From: Nitrospira sp. CG24E
GTDB taxonomy: Bacteria > Nitrospirota > Nitrospiria > Nitrospirales > Nitrospiraceae
NCBI GenBank assembly: GCA_002869895.2
Contig: NEWP02000033.1
Location: forward strand, 44,455-108,454
Reading direction: 5' to 3'
Length of the DNA stretch: 64,000 nucleotides
Below, in pieces: positions 7,355 to 59,796 of this stretch. Under the pieces are notes generated by a model. That model did not search any database and was not told the DNA's origin. It was given only the letters and a program-made list of their open reading frames with translations. Both the position numbers and the translations under genes were made by a program. Position 1 is the stretch's first letter; the number at the start of each line of letters is the position of its first letter.

Positions 7355-8763
7355 GAGAGCATCCGTTCGAGCTCTTTCATGCGCTGCTCCACTCGCGTTT
7401 GGGCCGTTCCGCCTATTTGAGATTTTCGATCAATCGCGGCAGTGACTGTCAATCGAGGGAACAGGCCCTTTTCGATTCGCTCAGAAAATGTCCGCAGCTC
7501 CGCGAGCGAGAAGTCCGTAAGCTCACGGCCCTGATCCAATGAAGCACGCACCAGCCGGCCTGTAATCGCATGCGCTTCGCGAAACGGTACGCCTCGGGTC
7601 ACAAGATAATCCGCAACCTCCGTGGCCAACATACCGCCACCCTGAACCGCCTGCGTGAGCACATCCCGATTCACGGTAAGTCGACGCATCAGTTCTGTCA
7701 AGATCTCCACCGACGCACCTACGGTATCGAGGGCGTCGAAGAGCGCAGGCTTATCCTCCTGAAGATCTCGGTTATAACTCAAGGGCAGGGCCTTGAGCGT
7801 CGTCAAGAGATTGATCAAATGGCCATAGACGCGCCCGGTCTTACCCCGCACTAATTCAGGCACATCGGGATTTTTCTTCTGCGGCATCATGCTGCTGCCG
7901 GTACAGAAGGCATCGGGAAGCTCGACGAATCGGAACTCCTGGGACGACCAGAGAATCAATTCTTCACTGAGCCTAGATAGGTGCATCATGGCGATTGACA
8001 GGGCCGAGGCCACCTCGATCATGAAATCCCGATCCGATACGGCATCGAGACTGTTTTGCGTCACGGTAGGAAAGTTCAACAGCGCAGCGGTGAACCTGCG
8101 GTCGATTGGGTAGTTTGTCCCGGCGAGCGCGCCGGACCCCAATGGCATGACATTCACACGCACTGAGGCATCGCGGAATCGTCCCTTATCCCGCTCGATC
8201 ATTTCCACGTAAGCCAGAAGATGATGAGCAAACAAGACAGGCTGAGCCCGCTGAAGATGCGTATAGCCAGGCATGGCGACCGTTCGATTCGCCTTCGCTT
8301 TCGCCACCAAGACCCGCTGAAAATTTTCCAGACGCGCCACGAGCTGGCCGAGTTGATCACGCAAGTAGAGTCGGATGTCCAGCGCAACTTGATCGTTCCG
8401 GCTCCGGCCCGTGTGCAGCTTGCCGCCGAGCGGACCGATCAATTCTGTCAGCCGGCGCTCGATAGCCAGATGAATGTCTTCGTCTCGCCGTGTGAAGTGA
8501 AAGCGTCCGCGGTCCAGCTCCTTCTTCACCGACTCCAGGCCCCGCACGATCGTCTTGGTTTCAGAAGCGGTCAGTACGTGAGCCTTCCCCAACGTCTTGC
8601 AATGGGCGATGCTCCCCCGAATGTCATAGGCATAGAGCCGGCGATCGACCGCCACCGACACAGTGAAGGCTTCGACGAGACGGTTCGTTTTCTGCCGAAA
8701 CCGTCCCGCCCACGCCTTCTCGGCTGCCGGACGCCCTGGCTGATGTCCGCTCTGTCGGCCCAT
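7351..8763 (-). CDS. argH: Argininosuccinate lyase
   Basis: This is the last enzyme of arginine synthesis, splitting argininosuccinate into arginine and fumarate. The 470-residue protein carries the fumarase/aspartase signature GSSMMPQKKNPD and the conserved HTGRSRNDQ and TVTQNSLDAVSDRDF segments. Its ATG overlaps the argG stop by one base (TGATG), and its own stop overlaps the lipoprotein start, indicating translational coupling across the operon. Confidence 0.97.
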   Translation of the reverse strand: MGRQSGHQPGRPAAEKAWAGRFRQKTNRLVEAFTVSVAVDRRLYAYDIRGSIAHCKTLGKAHVLTASETKTIVRGLESVKKELDRGRFHFTRRDEDIHLAIERRLTELIGPLGGKLHTGRSRNDQVALDIRLYLRDQLGQLVARLENFQRVLVAKAKANRTVAMPGYTHLQRAQPVLFAHHLLAYVEMIERDKGRFRDASVRVNVMPLGSGALAGTNYPIDRRFTAALLNFPTVTQNSLDAVSDRDFMIEVASALSIAMMHLSRLSEELILWSSQEFRFVELPDAFCTGSSMMPQKKNPDVPELVRGKTGRVYGHLINLLTTLKALPLSYNRDLQEDKPALFDALDTVGASVEILTELMRRLTVNRDVLTQAVQGGGMLATEVADYLVTRGVPFREAHAITGRLVRASLDQGRELTDFSLAELRTFSERIEKGLFPRLTVTAAIDRKSQIGGTAQTRVEQRMKELERMLS

Positions 8764-9974
8764 CAGGCCGAACCCTTTCGCCGTTGCGCTCTGATTTTCA
8801 GACGCAACGCATTCAGACGGATGAACCCTTCGGCATCTTTCTGGTCGTATACGTCGTCTTCTTCAAACGTCGCAATATCAAGACGGTACAGTGAATTCTT
8901 GGACTTCCGTCCGACCACCGTACAGCTGCCCTTGTACAACTTCACACGCACGGTCCCCGACACATCCTTCTGCGCCTCATCCATGGCCGTCTGCACCATT
9001 TCCCGTTCAGGACTGAACCAATAGCCGTTATAGATCAGGTCGGCAAAACGAGGAATCAAACTGTCTCTGAAATGGAGCACTTCGCGATCCATGGTCAACG
9101 ATTCGAGGCCGCGATGCGCGGCATGCAACATCGTTCCGCCCGGTGTCTCATACACGCCGCGCGATTTCATGCCGACGTAACGGTTCTCGACCAGATCGAC
9201 ACGCCCGACCCCATGGGCGCCGCCCAGCTTGTTGAGATGGGCCAGCAACGTGGCCGGACTCATTTTTTTTCCATCTACGGCCACCGGATTGCCGGCCTCA
9301 TACCCGATCTCGACTTCCAGCGGCTTGTCCGGCGCCTGTTCCGGCGACAGAGTCATCTGAAAAATTTCATCAGGCGGCGCTTTCCAGGGGTCTTCGAGAA
9401 TGCCTCCCTCGTAACTGACGTGAAACAAGTTCAGATCCATGCTGTAGGGTTTCGCTTTGGTCGCGGTCACCGGGATGCCGTGCCGATCGGCATACTCGAT
9501 CAATTCCCGCCGCGAGCGCATCGTCCACTCCCGCCAAGGCGCAATGATCTTGAGCGTCGGTGCGAGAGCCGTATAGGTCAGTTCGAACCGCACCTGATCG
9601 TTTCCCTTTCCCGTCGCGCCATGCGAGACTGCCTCGGCACCCTCTTGCAGCGCGATTTCTGCTTGCCTCCGCGCGATGAGCGGGCGGGCAATCGATGTTC
9701 CCAACAAATAGCACCCTTCATACATGGCGTTGCCGCGCAACATCGGGAACACATAGTCTCTGACGAAGGTCTCACGCAGATCTTCCACATAAACCTTTTT
9801 CACGCCGAGCGCCTTCGCTTTTGCCTTGATGGTCTGGAGATCCTCCCCCTGACCGAGGTCCGCACAGAAGGCAATGACTTCGGCGTCGTACGTTTCCTGC
9901 AGCCACTTCAAGATCACAGAAGTATCGAGCCCGCCGGAATAGGCCAACACCACTTTTTTGATCGCGCGACTCAT
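8763..9974 (-). CDS. argG: Argininosuccinate synthase
   Basis: This enzyme joins citrulline and aspartate using ATP. The ATP-binding P-loop [12 protein letters not shown] lies within the first 20 residues; [15 protein letters not shown] and the C-terminal SLTMDREV follow. The start at 9974 gives 403 residues, the normal family length, and overlaps the argF stop as ATGA. The same frame is open another 87 codons upstream, but that part is antisense-like sequence over argF and is not included. Confidence 0.97.
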
Positions 9975-12436: not shown

Positions 12437-13078
12437 ATGAAACCCTGCTCGCAGTGCCAACAGCAGAACCAGGAAGACGCGAAATTCTGTCATCAATGCG
12501 GCAACACCCTGACCACCGAGCCTGAAGCCCCGATCGCTGCCCCAGTGGCTTCCGTGACACAGGCCGATGAACAGCTATGGCGCCAATTTATCGGCCCCTA
12601 CGCCGATCATTACCTGCATCATTTTAGAAAGTTTGGGCTAGGGGGAGAACCGAAGTTCGCCTTGACATGGAATTGGCCGGCCTTTCTCTATATTTCATTC
12701 CTCTGGTTTCTCTACCGAAAGATGTATGTCTATGCGCTGGTCTACGCCCTCGGTCCGATGATCTCGACCTACTTGACCGGCGACATTACCGTGGGTCTTA
12801 TCTGGAGCATCATGGCCGGAGCCACGGCGAACTATGTTTATTACTGGCACTGCCGTGAACGGATCAGAGCGATCAAGGAGGGATCATGGACGGATCCAGC
12901 CAAGCGGGATGAAACATTGAAGGAGACCGGAGGGGTCCAGCCCTACTTGATCTACGTCGGTATCGCCCTCTACGTGCTGTTCGTATTGTCTATGATCAAA
13001 ATGGTTCAGGACGGACCGCCAGACGGGGATCACTCACCAGAAAAACCGGCAAAGCCGGTTTCGGCAAGCAGCGTGTGA
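12437..13078 (+). CDS. Zinc-ribbon membrane protein (DUF2628-like)
   Basis: This protein has about 213 residues. It opens with a zinc-ribbon of the form CSQCQQQNQ...FCHQCG and continues through an Ala/Pro-rich linker to a region with about four hydrophobic segments (ALTWNWPAFLYISFLWFLYR onward). That fold, with the conserved WNWPAFL, is typical of the DUF2628 family of unknown function. The ATG at 12437 places the zinc ribbon at the very N-terminus; an earlier ATG at 12389 would fall inside the palindromic element. No clear ribosome binding site is seen. It is transcribed away from argD. Confidence 0.75.
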   Translation: MKPCSQCQQQNQEDAKFCHQCGNTLTTEPEAPIAAPVASVTQADEQLWRQFIGPYADHYLHHFRKFGLGGEPKFALTWNWPAFLYISFLWFLYRKMYVYALVYALGPMISTYLTGDITVGLIWSIMAGATANYVYYWHCRERIRAIKEGSWTDPAKRDETLKETGGVQPYLIYVGIALYVLFVLSMIKMVQDGPPDGDHSPEKPAKPVSASSV

Positions 13079-14762: not shown

Positions 14763-14843
14763 TCGTCTCGCTCATCGCGCGTTTCTCGCGCGTCGTGCCT
14801 ATCTCGCCAGTCTCGCTCTTCTCGCACGTCTCGCGCGTTCCGC
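14763..14843. repeat. Nine-unit degenerate 9-nt tandem repeat
   Basis: Nine consecutive 9-mers follow the consensus NNNTCTCGC on the plus strand: TCGTCTCGC, TCATCGCGC, GTTTCTCGC, GCGTCGTGC, CTATCTCGC, CAGTCTCGC, TCTTCTCGC, ACGTCTCGC and GCGTTCCGC. It fills the space between the start of tenA and the end of the transhydrogenase gene. Because 9 is a multiple of 3, the array reads as X-Ser-Arg repeats in one frame, but no convincing gene uses it. Confidence 0.8.
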
Positions 14844-16275: not shown

Positions 16276-16292
16276 CGGTTCATTCTAAAGGA

Positions 16293-16354
16293 AGGCTGAG
16301 GTTAAGGCTAAGGCTAGGGGAAAGTGTGCGTTTCCCTCTCCTCAGCCTCAACCT
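16293..16354. repeat. Short direct and inverted repeats between sthA and tpx
   Basis: The segment reads AGGCTGAGGTTAAGGCTAAG followed by GCTAGGGG, then 20 bases later CTCAGCCTCAACCT. AAGGCT recurs every 6 bases on the left, and AGGCTGAG/CTCAGCCT are exact inverted copies. It can fold as a hairpin downstream of the tpx-like gene, and could act as its terminator. Confidence 0.45.
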
Positions 16355-16376
16355 GGACCGCAGTCTTTTCTCCGGC

Positions 16377-23680: not shown

Positions 23681-23857
23681 ATGTCTCTGTTGATTCGGAA
23701 GTATAAGAGTGTCGGTGGAATGATGCAGGAAGAGCGGATCGACGATCCGGATCGAATCGAGCGGTATATGAGGCTTTTTGAGAAGGACGATATCAAGAAG
23801 CTCGAGACGGGCGTAAAGGTTTTCATTGAAAAGGATGAGTGGCAACTCCTGCCCTGA
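23681..23857 (+). CDS. Conserved-looking small protein, 58 residues
   Basis: The ATG at 23681 is preceded by AAGGAGGAGG, one of the strongest ribosome binding sites in the window. The protein (MSLLIRKYKSVGGMMQEERI and onward) is charged, with a predicted helix RIERYMRLFEKDDIKKLETG, and has no signal or membrane segment. Its family is not recognised. It is divergent from the FmdB-type gene and is followed by a 7-nt repeat region and another small gene. Confidence 0.7.
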   Translation: MSLLIRKYKSVGGMMQEERIDDPDRIERYMRLFEKDDIKKLETGVKVFIEKDEWQLLP

Positions 23858-23940
23858 GTGAGGGGTAAAGGGTAAGGAGCGATGGATTAAGGTGGCTTCG
23901 TTCTCATACCCCCTCACGCTTCACGCCTAACTGGTCCTCC
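23858..23940. repeat. Degenerate 7-nt repeat pair
   Basis: The left part reads TGAGGGG TAAAGGG TAAGGAG and the right part TACCCCC TCACGCT TCACGCC TAACTGG, in 7-nt register. The two parts are roughly inverted copies, so the transcript can fold back on itself. It fills the whole space between two small plus-strand genes. Confidence 0.5.
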
Positions 23941-24150
23941 ATGGCCTATTGGATTCACATCGCGCGCTCAATCGATCGAGTCACGCTCCATAAGGATCGT
24001 TGTTCCGAGGTTCCGTCGACATCGATCGGCTCCTCAACCGATTTTTGGGAAGGCGGATGGTTCGATTACAGGGATAAGGAGAGAGCCCTGGCGGCAATGG
24101 AACAGGCAGGGACAACTGAACGGCGGCGTTGTGCGTTGTGCAAAGCCTAA
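23941..24150 (+). CDS. Small Cys-containing protein, 69 residues
   Basis: The product starts MAYWIHIARSIDRVTLHKDRC and ends RRRCALCKA. The pattern of an early His-x-x-x-Cys, a central WxxGWFDYRDKERALAAM helix and a terminal CxxC recalls small bacterial proteins of unknown function that probably bind a metal. There is no obvious ribosome binding site, so translation may be coupled to the gene before it. It lies between two 7-nt repeat regions. Confidence 0.6.
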   Translation: MAYWIHIARSIDRVTLHKDRCSEVPSTSIGSSTDFWEGGWFDYRDKERALAAMEQAGTTERRRCALCKA

Positions 24151-24158
24151 ACAGTCGA

Positions 24159-24259
24159 AGTTCTGAGCGCTGGGTTCCAAGTGCTGAGTTGCGGACAGCT
24201 CGGTTGCTTCGGTTTCGCCCGAATACTCAGAACCCATAACTCAACACTCAGCACTGCTT
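24159..24259. repeat. Inverted pair of degenerate 7-nt tandem repeats
   Basis: Left array: AGTTCTG, AGCGCTG, GGTTCCA, AGTGCTG, AGTTGCG (24159-24193). Right array: ACTCAGA, ACCCATA, ACTCAAC, ACTCAGC, ACTGCTT (24225-24259). The right array is essentially the reverse complement of the left, so a long imperfect hairpin forms about 7 bp before the EamA gene. Confidence 0.75.
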
Positions 24260-24266
24260 CGATTCC

Positions 24267-25136
24267 ATGCCACGATTTGCACTCCTATTGACCACGTTTA
24301 TCTGGGGCGCGACGTTTCCCGCCACCAAAGCGGTGTTGGAGCAGCTTCCCCCACTGTCATTTCTCTTTCTTCGATTTCTCCTGGGAGCGTTGCTGGTCGG
24401 CGGCGGGTTTTTATTGTGGCGATTGCGTTTGCACCGTGAGCAGGCAGTCTTGCGTGCCAGCGCGATCGCCACCAGCTGGTTGTTTCTCGGCTATGTCTTC
24501 CAGACGGTCGGACTGTACTATACGACCTCTTCGAATTCTGCTTTCATTACGGCGCTCTATGTCGTTATCGTGCCATTGATTCTGCGCCGATTCGGCTGGC
24601 GTGTGTGGTTAGCGACGGGAATTGCTACGGTGGGGCTTTGGTTGCTGGTGAAGCCAAGCGCATCGGGCAATCTTGGGGACTTCTTGACGCTCGGCGGTGC
24701 GATCGCGTTTGCCGCTCACATTGCCTGCCTCGAGCGGTTTACCCGCGAGGTGGATGCGCCCTCCCTGTTTGCTTGGCAAATGGCGGCGATGGTCGTGTTG
24801 CTGCTTCCCACCCTTCTGATTGAACGGGCGCCGGTTCAGGCCTTTGCTCCGACGGCACTGTTGCTAGTCGGACTGGGGGTGACCGGGGGACTGGCAACCG
24901 GAGCCTTTGCCGTTCAAATGTGGGTGCAGCGCATTGTACCGGCGCAGCAGGTGGCGTTGATTTTTGCCTCAGAACCGGCTTATGCAGCCGGGCTCTCCTG
25001 GTACTTTCTGGGAGAAACATTGGACCTTCAGGGGTGGGTTGGGAGTGGGCTGATTTTGTTGGCGGTGTTGGTGGGCGCTTATGGAAGCGGCCCGCAGCCG
25101 CCGTTACCCTCGGTCGGCACTGTGCAGCCGGCTTAA
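24267..25136 (+). CDS. EamA/DMT-family permease
   Basis: This 289-residue protein has about ten hydrophobic segments in two repeated halves, each an EamA domain. The N-terminal half has FIWGATFPATKAVLE and FLFLRFLLGALLVGG; the second half carries IFASEPAYAAGLSWYFLGE, a motif typical of drug/metabolite exporters. The substrate cannot be told from sequence. A folded 7-nt repeat lies immediately upstream. Confidence 0.9.
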   Translation: MPRFALLLTTFIWGATFPATKAVLEQLPPLSFLFLRFLLGALLVGGGFLLWRLRLHREQAVLRASAIATSWLFLGYVFQTVGLYYTTSSNSAFITALYVVIVPLILRRFGWRVWLATGIATVGLWLLVKPSASGNLGDFLTLGGAIAFAAHIACLERFTREVDAPSLFAWQMAAMVVLLLPTLLIERAPVQAFAPTALLLVGLGVTGGLATGAFAVQMWVQRIVPAQQVALIFASEPAYAAGLSWYFLGETLDLQGWVGSGLILLAVLVGAYGSGPQPPLPSVGTVQPA

Positions 25137-44319: not shown

Positions 44320-45639
44320 TCACGGAGGGGGCGCAACAGGAGCGGACGCCGCTTTCAATCCTCGATGGAGAAAAATGGAAACGCTTCCATTGCCGTTGTC
44401 CGCCGTCACGAGTCCAGGCTCTTCGTCTTCTTTCGTGGTGACGCGAAATGACGCCAGAGCGAAGGGGCCTGGTTTTGTCCGATAGTTTCTCGGCGGATAT
44501 TCGAACGTGCCGTCGTCACGACCGAAGAGAATCGAGAGATCGCTCGATTGAAGGTTCACGATCGCCACGTCGGTTCGACGGTCACCGTTGAAGTCGCGAG
44601 CGAGCCCAAAGTTCGGTCCTGCGTCGGCGCCGGAATCGTGCCCCGGTTTGAATGTCCCGTTCCCTACTCCGAGAAAGGTCGTAAAACTATCCTGTACACC
44701 GTTGATGACGAGTAGATCACGGATTCGATCATGATTGAAGTCGGCAAAGCTGACTCCCAGCGGACGCTTTCCCGTCTTATAGTCGGTGGGAGGGCGAAAT
44801 GTGCCGTTGCCATTTCCCATCCAGATGGAAACCGCGTTCAACATCGGACCCCCGTTTGTCACAGCCAAGTCGATCTTCCCATCGCCATCCAAGTCGGCTA
44901 GGGCCACAGATGTCGGCGTATCGCCATACTCGTACTGCGCTCCATGGGTAAATTCACCGGTCCCGGTCCCCAGGAATACTTTGATCTTGTCGTTGCGCAG
45001 CGCAACCACGAGGTCGAGCACCTGATCCCCGTTCAGATCGTCGATGGCGATGGCGATAGGAGTCCGATGCACAGGATAGCGGGTCCCCTCTTGAAATTTT
45101 CCGTCGGCCCGACCGAATAGTACAGCCACTTCGTCGGCTCCCGAACAGGCCAAGACCACATCAGGGAAGGGATCTGAGTTGAACAGCCCGAGCGCGAGCG
45201 AGCGAGGCTCTTTACACACATTCAGTTCGATCTGATCCCCGAAGGTACCGTCTCCATTGCCTAAGAGAATTGAAAGGGTGTTGCTGCCCATGTTCGTTGT
45301 CACCAGATCCGTATAGCCGTCCTGATTGACGTCGGTGGTGGTGATGGTCGTCGGATTCTTGCCAACTTTGTAGCTGGCAAAGTAGTAGAAGAGATCTGGT
45401 GGAGAGTAGGGGTCCTGCTTAGTGCAGCCATTTGCCATAAGCAAGAGAAGGCTTGTCGCCGTGACCAGTAGACTTCGCGCGCCAGCAGAATGAGGGAGAT
45501 TCACAAGGGCAAAGACTTTCTCAGAATGTTCAACCAGCCTATTCAGTAAGGATGCAACAAGTGAGAAGGCTAGGCGTGCGTTTCGGTACATTGAGTATGT
45601 GAGAGAAGCGAGAACGCCGCCGCCGGAATTTTTTAGCAT
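44320..45639 (-). CDS. FG-GAP/VCBS repeat lipoprotein
   Basis: This 439-residue protein has a long N-terminus with a lipobox-like MANGCTK near residue 72, then about six tandem beta-propeller blades. Each carries a calcium-loop motif: DVNQDGYTD, DLNGDQVLD, DLDGDGKID, DFNHDRIRD and DFNGDRRTD, alternating with ILLGNGDGTF-type turns. Such FG-GAP proteins bind calcium and often mediate surface contacts. The N-terminal 60 residues before the lipobox are unusually long; a start closer to the lipobox (a GTG or TTG near residue 60) is possible. It is followed by two stem-loops. Confidence 0.85.
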   Translation of the reverse strand: MLKNSGGGVLASLTYSMYRNARLAFSLVASLLNRLVEHSEKVFALVNLPHSAGARSLLVTATSLLLLMANGCTKQDPYSPPDLFYYFASYKVGKNPTTITTTDVNQDGYTDLVTTNMGSNTLSILLGNGDGTFGDQIELNVCKEPRSLALGLFNSDPFPDVVLACSGADEVAVLFGRADGKFQEGTRYPVHRTPIAIAIDDLNGDQVLDLVVALRNDKIKVFLGTGTGEFTHGAQYEYGDTPTSVALADLDGDGKIDLAVTNGGPMLNAVSIWMGNGNGTFRPPTDYKTGKRPLGVSFADFNHDRIRDLLVINGVQDSFTTFLGVGNGTFKPGHDSGADAGPNFGLARDFNGDRRTDVAIVNLQSSDLSILFGRDDGTFEYPPRNYRTKPGPFALASFRVTTKEDEEPGLVTADNGNGSVSIFLHRGLKAASAPVAPPP

Positions 45640-59681: not shown

Positions 59682-59700
59682 ACTCTAAGAGGCAACATGG

Positions 59701-59775
59701 GCTGAAGGTGTTCAGGCTGAAGGCTGAAGTGTTCGGAGCTCCGACCTTCAGCCTGAACACCTTCAGGCTGAACAC
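59701..59775. repeat. Palindromic degenerate 7-nt repeats between yebC and ruvA
   Basis: GAAGGTGTTCAGGCTGAAG (59704-59722) and its exact inverse CTTCAGCCTGAACACCTTC (59746-59764) form a 19-bp stem around the palindrome CGGAGCTCCG. The arms are made of 7-nt units such as GCTGAAG, GTGTTCA, GGCTGAA, GGCTGAA and GTGTTCG. It may stop or stabilise the yebC transcript. Confidence 0.8.
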
Positions 59776-59796
59776 CTGAGTAGCTACCGCTGTTGC

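Follow-up and report, generated by a model that had tools for sequence, protein, structure and literature searches.

To our knowledge, an over-representation of heptamer repeats in bacterial genomes has been reported since 2007, with slippage as the only cause offered, and the 23S rRNA intervening-sequence protein (IVP, or S23) is a protein of solved structure with no assigned function and no known catalytic activity. In the 23S rRNA intervening sequence (IVS) of Coxiella, a variable number of heptamers (GACAGAT) precedes the S23p ORF, and RNase III cleaves the IVS at the first heptamer (PMC4990558). The P6b stem of the Nostoc trnL intron is built of Class I (TDNGATT) or Class II (NNTGAGT) heptads, and the class has been replaced repeatedly (PMC4476775). 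For Xanthomonas, 70–75 inverted GGGAATC pairs are given in PMC4692102, and the TAACTGA repeats of Beggiatoaceae are interpreted as regulatory in PMC4679880. Avd, a protein of diversity-generating retroelements, belongs to the same fold family as IVP (PMC10053308).

Hairpins and arrays of the window

The window, i.e., the whole 64,000 nt stretch that was analysed, corresponds to nt 44455–108454 of contig C27 in a 3.45 Mb draft genome of 99 contigs. The YebC protein that it encodes is 99% identical to one from a Nitrospiraceae MAG, which places the organism in the Nitrospira clade. The arrays of the window and the features next to them are listed below, with self-matches given as identical positions at the stated lag.

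1001–1035, + strand: 7-nt array of the GCGTGAA family (lag 7, 23/28)
1066–1096, + strand: weak partner array of 1001–1035 (lag 7, 12/24, P = 0.03)
14797–14839, + strand: member of a period-9 class, with GCGAGA-type units
16276–16376, − strand: spacer hairpin with 6-nt units (AAGGCT), not 7 (lag 6, 15/20; fold z −4.0 on the − strand)
23858–23940, + strand: second inverted pair of 7-nt arrays (period 7 in both arms, P 0.002–0.003; orthologous hairpins in L085 and L087)
23941–24150, + strand: small ORF of 69 aa between the two hairpins
24159–24193, + strand: left arm, degenerate 7-nt units AGTTCTG AGCGCTG GGTTCCA AGTGCTG AGTT (lag 7, 14/28, P = 0.004 by shuffling; lag 14, 14/21)
24194–24221, + strand: loop or inner hairpin of the 24159–24259 element in the MFE fold, partly conserved in L082–L085 and L089
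24222–24258, + strand: right arm, reverse-complement 7-nt units ACTCAGA ACCCATA ACTCAAC ACTCAGC ACT (lag 7, 19/30, P < 0.0005)
24267–25136, + strand: EamA transporter gene (PF00892), downstream of the 24159 hairpin
59682–59796, − strand: spacer separating a YebC-family gene from a RuvA-like gene, with a GGCTGAA hairpin of 15-nt (8+7) units

The inverted 7-nt arrays that a preliminary description had placed at 24159–24259 are present, and their arms are imperfect reverse complements of each other. The spacer that holds them (24151–24266) folds moderately on either strand (z about −2.8). The same design had been described at 23858–23940 and was confirmed there; this pair takes up all the DNA between the stop codon ending at 23857 and the ATG at 23941, with a fold z of only −1.3 to −1.8. 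The 69-aa ORF that separates the two hairpins is 83–99% identical in congeners across the genus and has no Pfam match. The 7-nt array described at 1001–1035 was also found, directly upstream of an ABC-2 transporter gene (220–999, − strand), and folding of the 1000–1088 spacer is not significant (z about −0.4).

At two other positions the description needs correction. The arrays at 59701–59775 do form a strong hairpin (z −5.4 to −6.9 for the spacer 59682–59796), but not with the 7-nt unit of the other sites: the right arm has a period of 15 (18/19) and not of 7 (9/27, P = 0.23). The array at 16293–16354, described as having 6–7-nt units, has period 6 and not 7.

The window arrays fill spacers between co-directional genes, with left arms beginning at the stop codon or shortly behind it and right arms ending from a few to about 20 bases before the next start. 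Read from the sequence, they do not resemble intrinsic terminators, as the stem is not followed by a T tract and the right arms run into the start-codon region. A tRNA was the sole match in an Rfam scan of the window.

The spacer at 24151–24266 was compared between the source genome and 24 congeners with spacers of similar length. Most orthologues carry a hairpin (mean fold z −3.4 over the 25 spacers), but some have AGTGCTG as its unit, others GTGATGA, and two GTCAATG or GTCATTG, with both arms switching unit together. The earlier statement that the register is common to the arrays while their sequence varies is correct, and orthologous positions in close relatives have different units. Array length, proposed earlier for comparison between strains, varies as well: relatives differ by a whole 15-nt step in the 59701 hairpin. 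A further case is L097 against L098, where the upstream gene and spacer are 100% identical and the flanking genes 97%, while the spacer of the 24151–24266 type is only 53% identical. The L098 version is similar to that of L100 and L107, so recombination between strains is as possible as a new insertion. Across relatives, the YebC–RuvA spacer contains a GGCTGAA, an AACGATG or a GAGTGAT hairpin, or none, and in most Nitrospira it is without one.

Periodicity across the genome and the genus

An excess of period-7 signal in intergenic DNA over shuffled controls had been named as the test of the repeat family. It was applied to 285 spacers from 464 kb of the source genome, counting self-matches of at least 15/21 at a given lag; genes were called by a codon-usage script, which is approximate and misses small genes (e.g., the 69-aa ORF at 23941–24150). 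At lag 7, 23 spacers reached the threshold, compared with 0.6 in shuffles, and at lag 14 there were 16, compared with 0.4. In 81 loci of Nitrospira relatives the lag-7 counts were 21 and 2.3, with almost none in coding DNA. The excess predicted by the preliminary description is thus clear. A search for exact tandem families was abandoned, as too few were found because the units are degenerate, and a single 7-nt rule was ruled out by units of 6, 8, 9 and 15 nt.

Most other lags were near background in the 285 spacers, with lag 9 also raised, although this is partly an artefact, since runs of N account for about a quarter of its rows. The remaining rows are GGTTTGTTT/AAACAAACC and GCGAGA-type arrays. 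These make up a further class of inverted arrays, built of 9-nt units and seen at 14797–14839 in the window and in spacers of contigs C20 and C6 of the source genome; arrays of 9-nt units also surround some IVP genes (L138, L160 and L168). Other short dispersed repeats of about 100–130 nt (L175:4106–4236; L174:7775–7865, 8711–8816 and 12767–12867) are present in many copies per genome across the genus.

The arrays had been judged not to be copies of one element, a view that the wider sample shows to be wrong or at least incomplete. The unit pair CGTGAARCGTGAARCG, formed by the units of the 1001–1035 array, has 110 matches in the source genome and 2–125 occurrences in congeners, and the reversed control pattern has none in either. 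The 59701 GGCTGAA hairpin is likewise a dispersed, MITE-like family with further copies in congeners, and arms are shared by IVP genes at unrelated sites (see below). Across 32 genomes, the number of CGTGAARCGTGAARCG copies correlates with the number of IVP genes (Spearman 0.69; 0.54 per Mb). Solo hairpins are also present in genomes in which no IVP was detected, and unit copies are few there (2–17).

IVP genes between inverted arrays

Eleven IVP genes (PF05635, TIGR02436) are present in the source genome, and none was found in 14 control genomes. Their link with arrays was first noticed around one gene during tests of Y1 transposases. Most of the 11 are directly bracketed by inverted 7-, 8- or 9-nt arrays, each locus with its own unit sequence, and the full-length element of about 0.43 kb, found outside the window, consists of a left arm, the IVP gene and an inverted right arm. 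Both proteins tested match TIGR02436, and the one also scanned against Pfam matches PF05635. Their nearest solved structure, 2gsc of the protein XCC0516, was deposited as five chains, and the protein is described as a homopentamer (PMC4990558). The match to the Avd profile of diversity-generating retroelements (NF033474) was weak, at 40 bits against a curated cut-off of 80.

Flanking arrays were scored by a self-match of at least 14/21 at the same lag (7, 8 or 9) on both sides of the gene. They were found at 25/40 IVP loci of the genus compared with 1/379 other genes of the source genome (Fisher 9e-29), the controls all coming from one genome and the IVP loci including orthologous sites, so that the counts are not independent. 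In other Nitrospirota genera, 17/28 IVP loci had two-sided arrays, as did 13/14 in a small but diverse set from plasmids (13 cyanobacterial, one from Azospirillum). Inverted complementarity of at least 12 between the flanks was seen at 80% of the genus IVP loci and at 5% of controls. At L222, L225 and L233, on cyanobacterial plasmids, IVP elements lie inside CRISPR operons (cas6-IVP-cas4, cas10-IVP-cmr3). At L207 and L212, which have their downstream gene in common, the right arm overlaps the start codon and seems to code for the N-terminal residues of the protein that follows.

Arms and gene behave as a single unit, which occurs at unrelated sites. Arms are common to IVP pairs or groups at non-syntenic positions (L220/L221, L224/L226/L227, L228/L230, L195/L211 and L229/L235), and in the first four of these the proteins are 72–97% identical, reaching 96.5% for L220/L221, from genomes of different families. 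Local alignments of such pairs stop at the outer arm ends or no more than about 25 bases away, the left end of L220/L221 being excepted as L221 starts at a contig end. The pair L161/L218 proved to be syntenic and was excluded as evidence. At some sites IVP has been kept vertically across genera (L146/L159/L215/L217), so movement of the element may be rare.

Orthologous positions with and without the gene were compared at four IVP sites between the source genome and five congeners. At site 3, the arms enclose IVP in the source genome, and the same GCGTGAA arms enclose a short loop in G007, G016 and G019, while in G002 a GGCTGAA hairpin is nested between remnants of the GCGTGAA arms. At site 2, G015 retains both arms around an IVP shortened by internal deletion, and at site 4 the same genome has no hairpin. 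At site 1, L173 carries the element in the opposite orientation to L135, L150, L152 and L153, the site is nearly empty in G016, the arms of G002 and G019 hold another repeat in the loop, and G015 has a broken DUF559 gene there (L179, C100:88650–89450; PF04480, 1e-20). DUF559 was rejected as a general second cargo, since both matches of the source genome are part of long ORFs of 691 and 1732 aa. These differences are compatible with gain or loss of the IVP gene and do not tell the direction, and a clean target-site duplication or unoccupied site was not found among the four.

Origin of the hairpins and comparison with known systems

The window hairpins are, we think likely, gene-less, MITE-like members of a family of IVS-like selfish hairpin elements whose full form carries IVP. 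They contain no IVP gene themselves and are assigned to the family by the type of their arms and by orthologous sites in other places. Short, gene-less copies with inverted ends and a gene-bearing relative are seen at orthologous site 3 and among the dispersed GGCTGAA hairpins.

A neutral origin, in which polymerase slippage generates the 7-nt repeats, template switching at quasi-palindromes generates the inverted copy and IVP merely tends to insert there, appears unlikely. It would fit the degenerate units, their 6-, 7-, 8-, 9- and 15-nt variants and the changes in length by unit steps, as well as the great excess of solo hairpins over IVP genes, and Mrazek proposed slippage for heptamers, as cited in PMC4679880. 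It does not predict that arms and IVP are common to non-syntenic sites with homology stopping near the arm ends, that both arms recur at plasmid IVP genes of other phyla, or that whole hairpins are swapped between relatives as close as L097 and L098. The common generating process first suggested for the arrays is therefore retained only in part: slippage probably explains array length and degeneracy, but does not account for the gene association or for whole-hairpin replacement. We would give rather little credence to a host-useful RNA, i.e., a hairpin between cistrons that would stabilise transcripts, process them or keep them apart and be selected for structure only. Structure is indeed retained across orthologous spacers despite different units, and arrays occur in 29/216 co-directional spacers compared with 3/69 others (p = 0.047), but this orientation bias is weak, many orthologous spacers (such as yebC–ruvA) have no hairpin, and the IVP gene in the loop and the plasmid and cross-phylum copies would be left unexplained.

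Inverted pairs with variable loops look like BIMEs, and the source genome has three Y1 transposase genes; none of the three is flanked by heptad arrays, however, whereas IVP genes are, and on this ground it was rejected as very improbable that the hairpins are palindromes of the REP/BIME type, mobilised by a REP-associated tyrosine transposase (RAYT). It is equally hard to believe that a translational regulator binds the arrays close to start codons, a role suggested for the TAACTGA repeats of Beggiatoaceae. Right arms do end a few bases from start codons, but left arms begin where the preceding gene ends, at its stop codon, the units vary from site to site, and the pairing of the arms would have no explanation.

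For the selfish hairpin element, the following course of events may be envisaged. It would sit in transcribed spacers, as the IVS does in 23S rRNA, and its RNA would fold into a long stem that RNase III, by analogy, could excise, making the insertion tolerable. IVP may help copies, including those without the gene, to spread or to be kept; no transposase or other mobility enzyme of the element was identified. With units of 7 nt, the arms could slip and lengthen and then pair again in register, so that their sequence changes fast while the stem persists. A broader proposal is offered tentatively, and we hold it as doubtful: that inverted heptamer arrays across bacteria, including cyanobacterial STRRs, the trnL P6b stem, the Xanthomonas GGGAATC pairs, the Coxiella 23S IVS and the Nitrospira hairpins, are all ends or remnants of one widespread class of selfish hairpin, whose 7-nt register exists because each subunit of the pentameric IVP reads one unit of the arms. 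Heptamer repeats and IVP occur together in three phyla, which provides a testable setting for both. The IVP link may account for a class of 7-base repeats that is widespread in bacteria. It would also provide an origin for much of the spacer DNA of Nitrospira and cyanobacteria, and a means of recognising such hairpin elements in annotation.

Intergenic tandem heptamers are common to the cyanobacterial STRRs, the Beggiatoaceae TAACTGA repeats, the Xanthomonas GGGAATC pairs and the Nitrospira arrays, and the available text of the papers on the first three (PMC4692102, PMC4679880) does not connect them with IVP genes or with a mobile unit. Within the open-licence literature, no paper was found that ties intergenic heptad arrays to IVP genes outside rRNA. 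Like MITEs, the Nitrospira hairpins are short, have inverted ends, carry no gene and presumably depend on a gene-bearing relative, but in place of a fixed terminal sequence they end in degenerate periodic arrays, and duplication of the target was not observed. Similarly, the P6b stem of the Nostoc trnL intron consists of 7-nt units on both strands and has undergone independent class replacements, and its Class II motif NNTGAGT fits the Nitrospira units GCTGAGT and GATGAGT (PMC4476775); it is one intron stem, however, whereas the Nitrospira hairpins occupy spacers genome-wide and include IVP-bearing copies. The full-length elements share with the 23S rRNA IVS the S23p/IVP ORF inside, the complementary ends that form a long stem and the size of about 0.43 kb, and with the Coxiella IVS also the tandem heptamers next to the ORF (PMC4990558). 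The loci examined lie between protein-coding genes, so the element is not classed as a 23S IVS, and it differs further in having many copies per genome, most of them gene-less, each site with its own unit.
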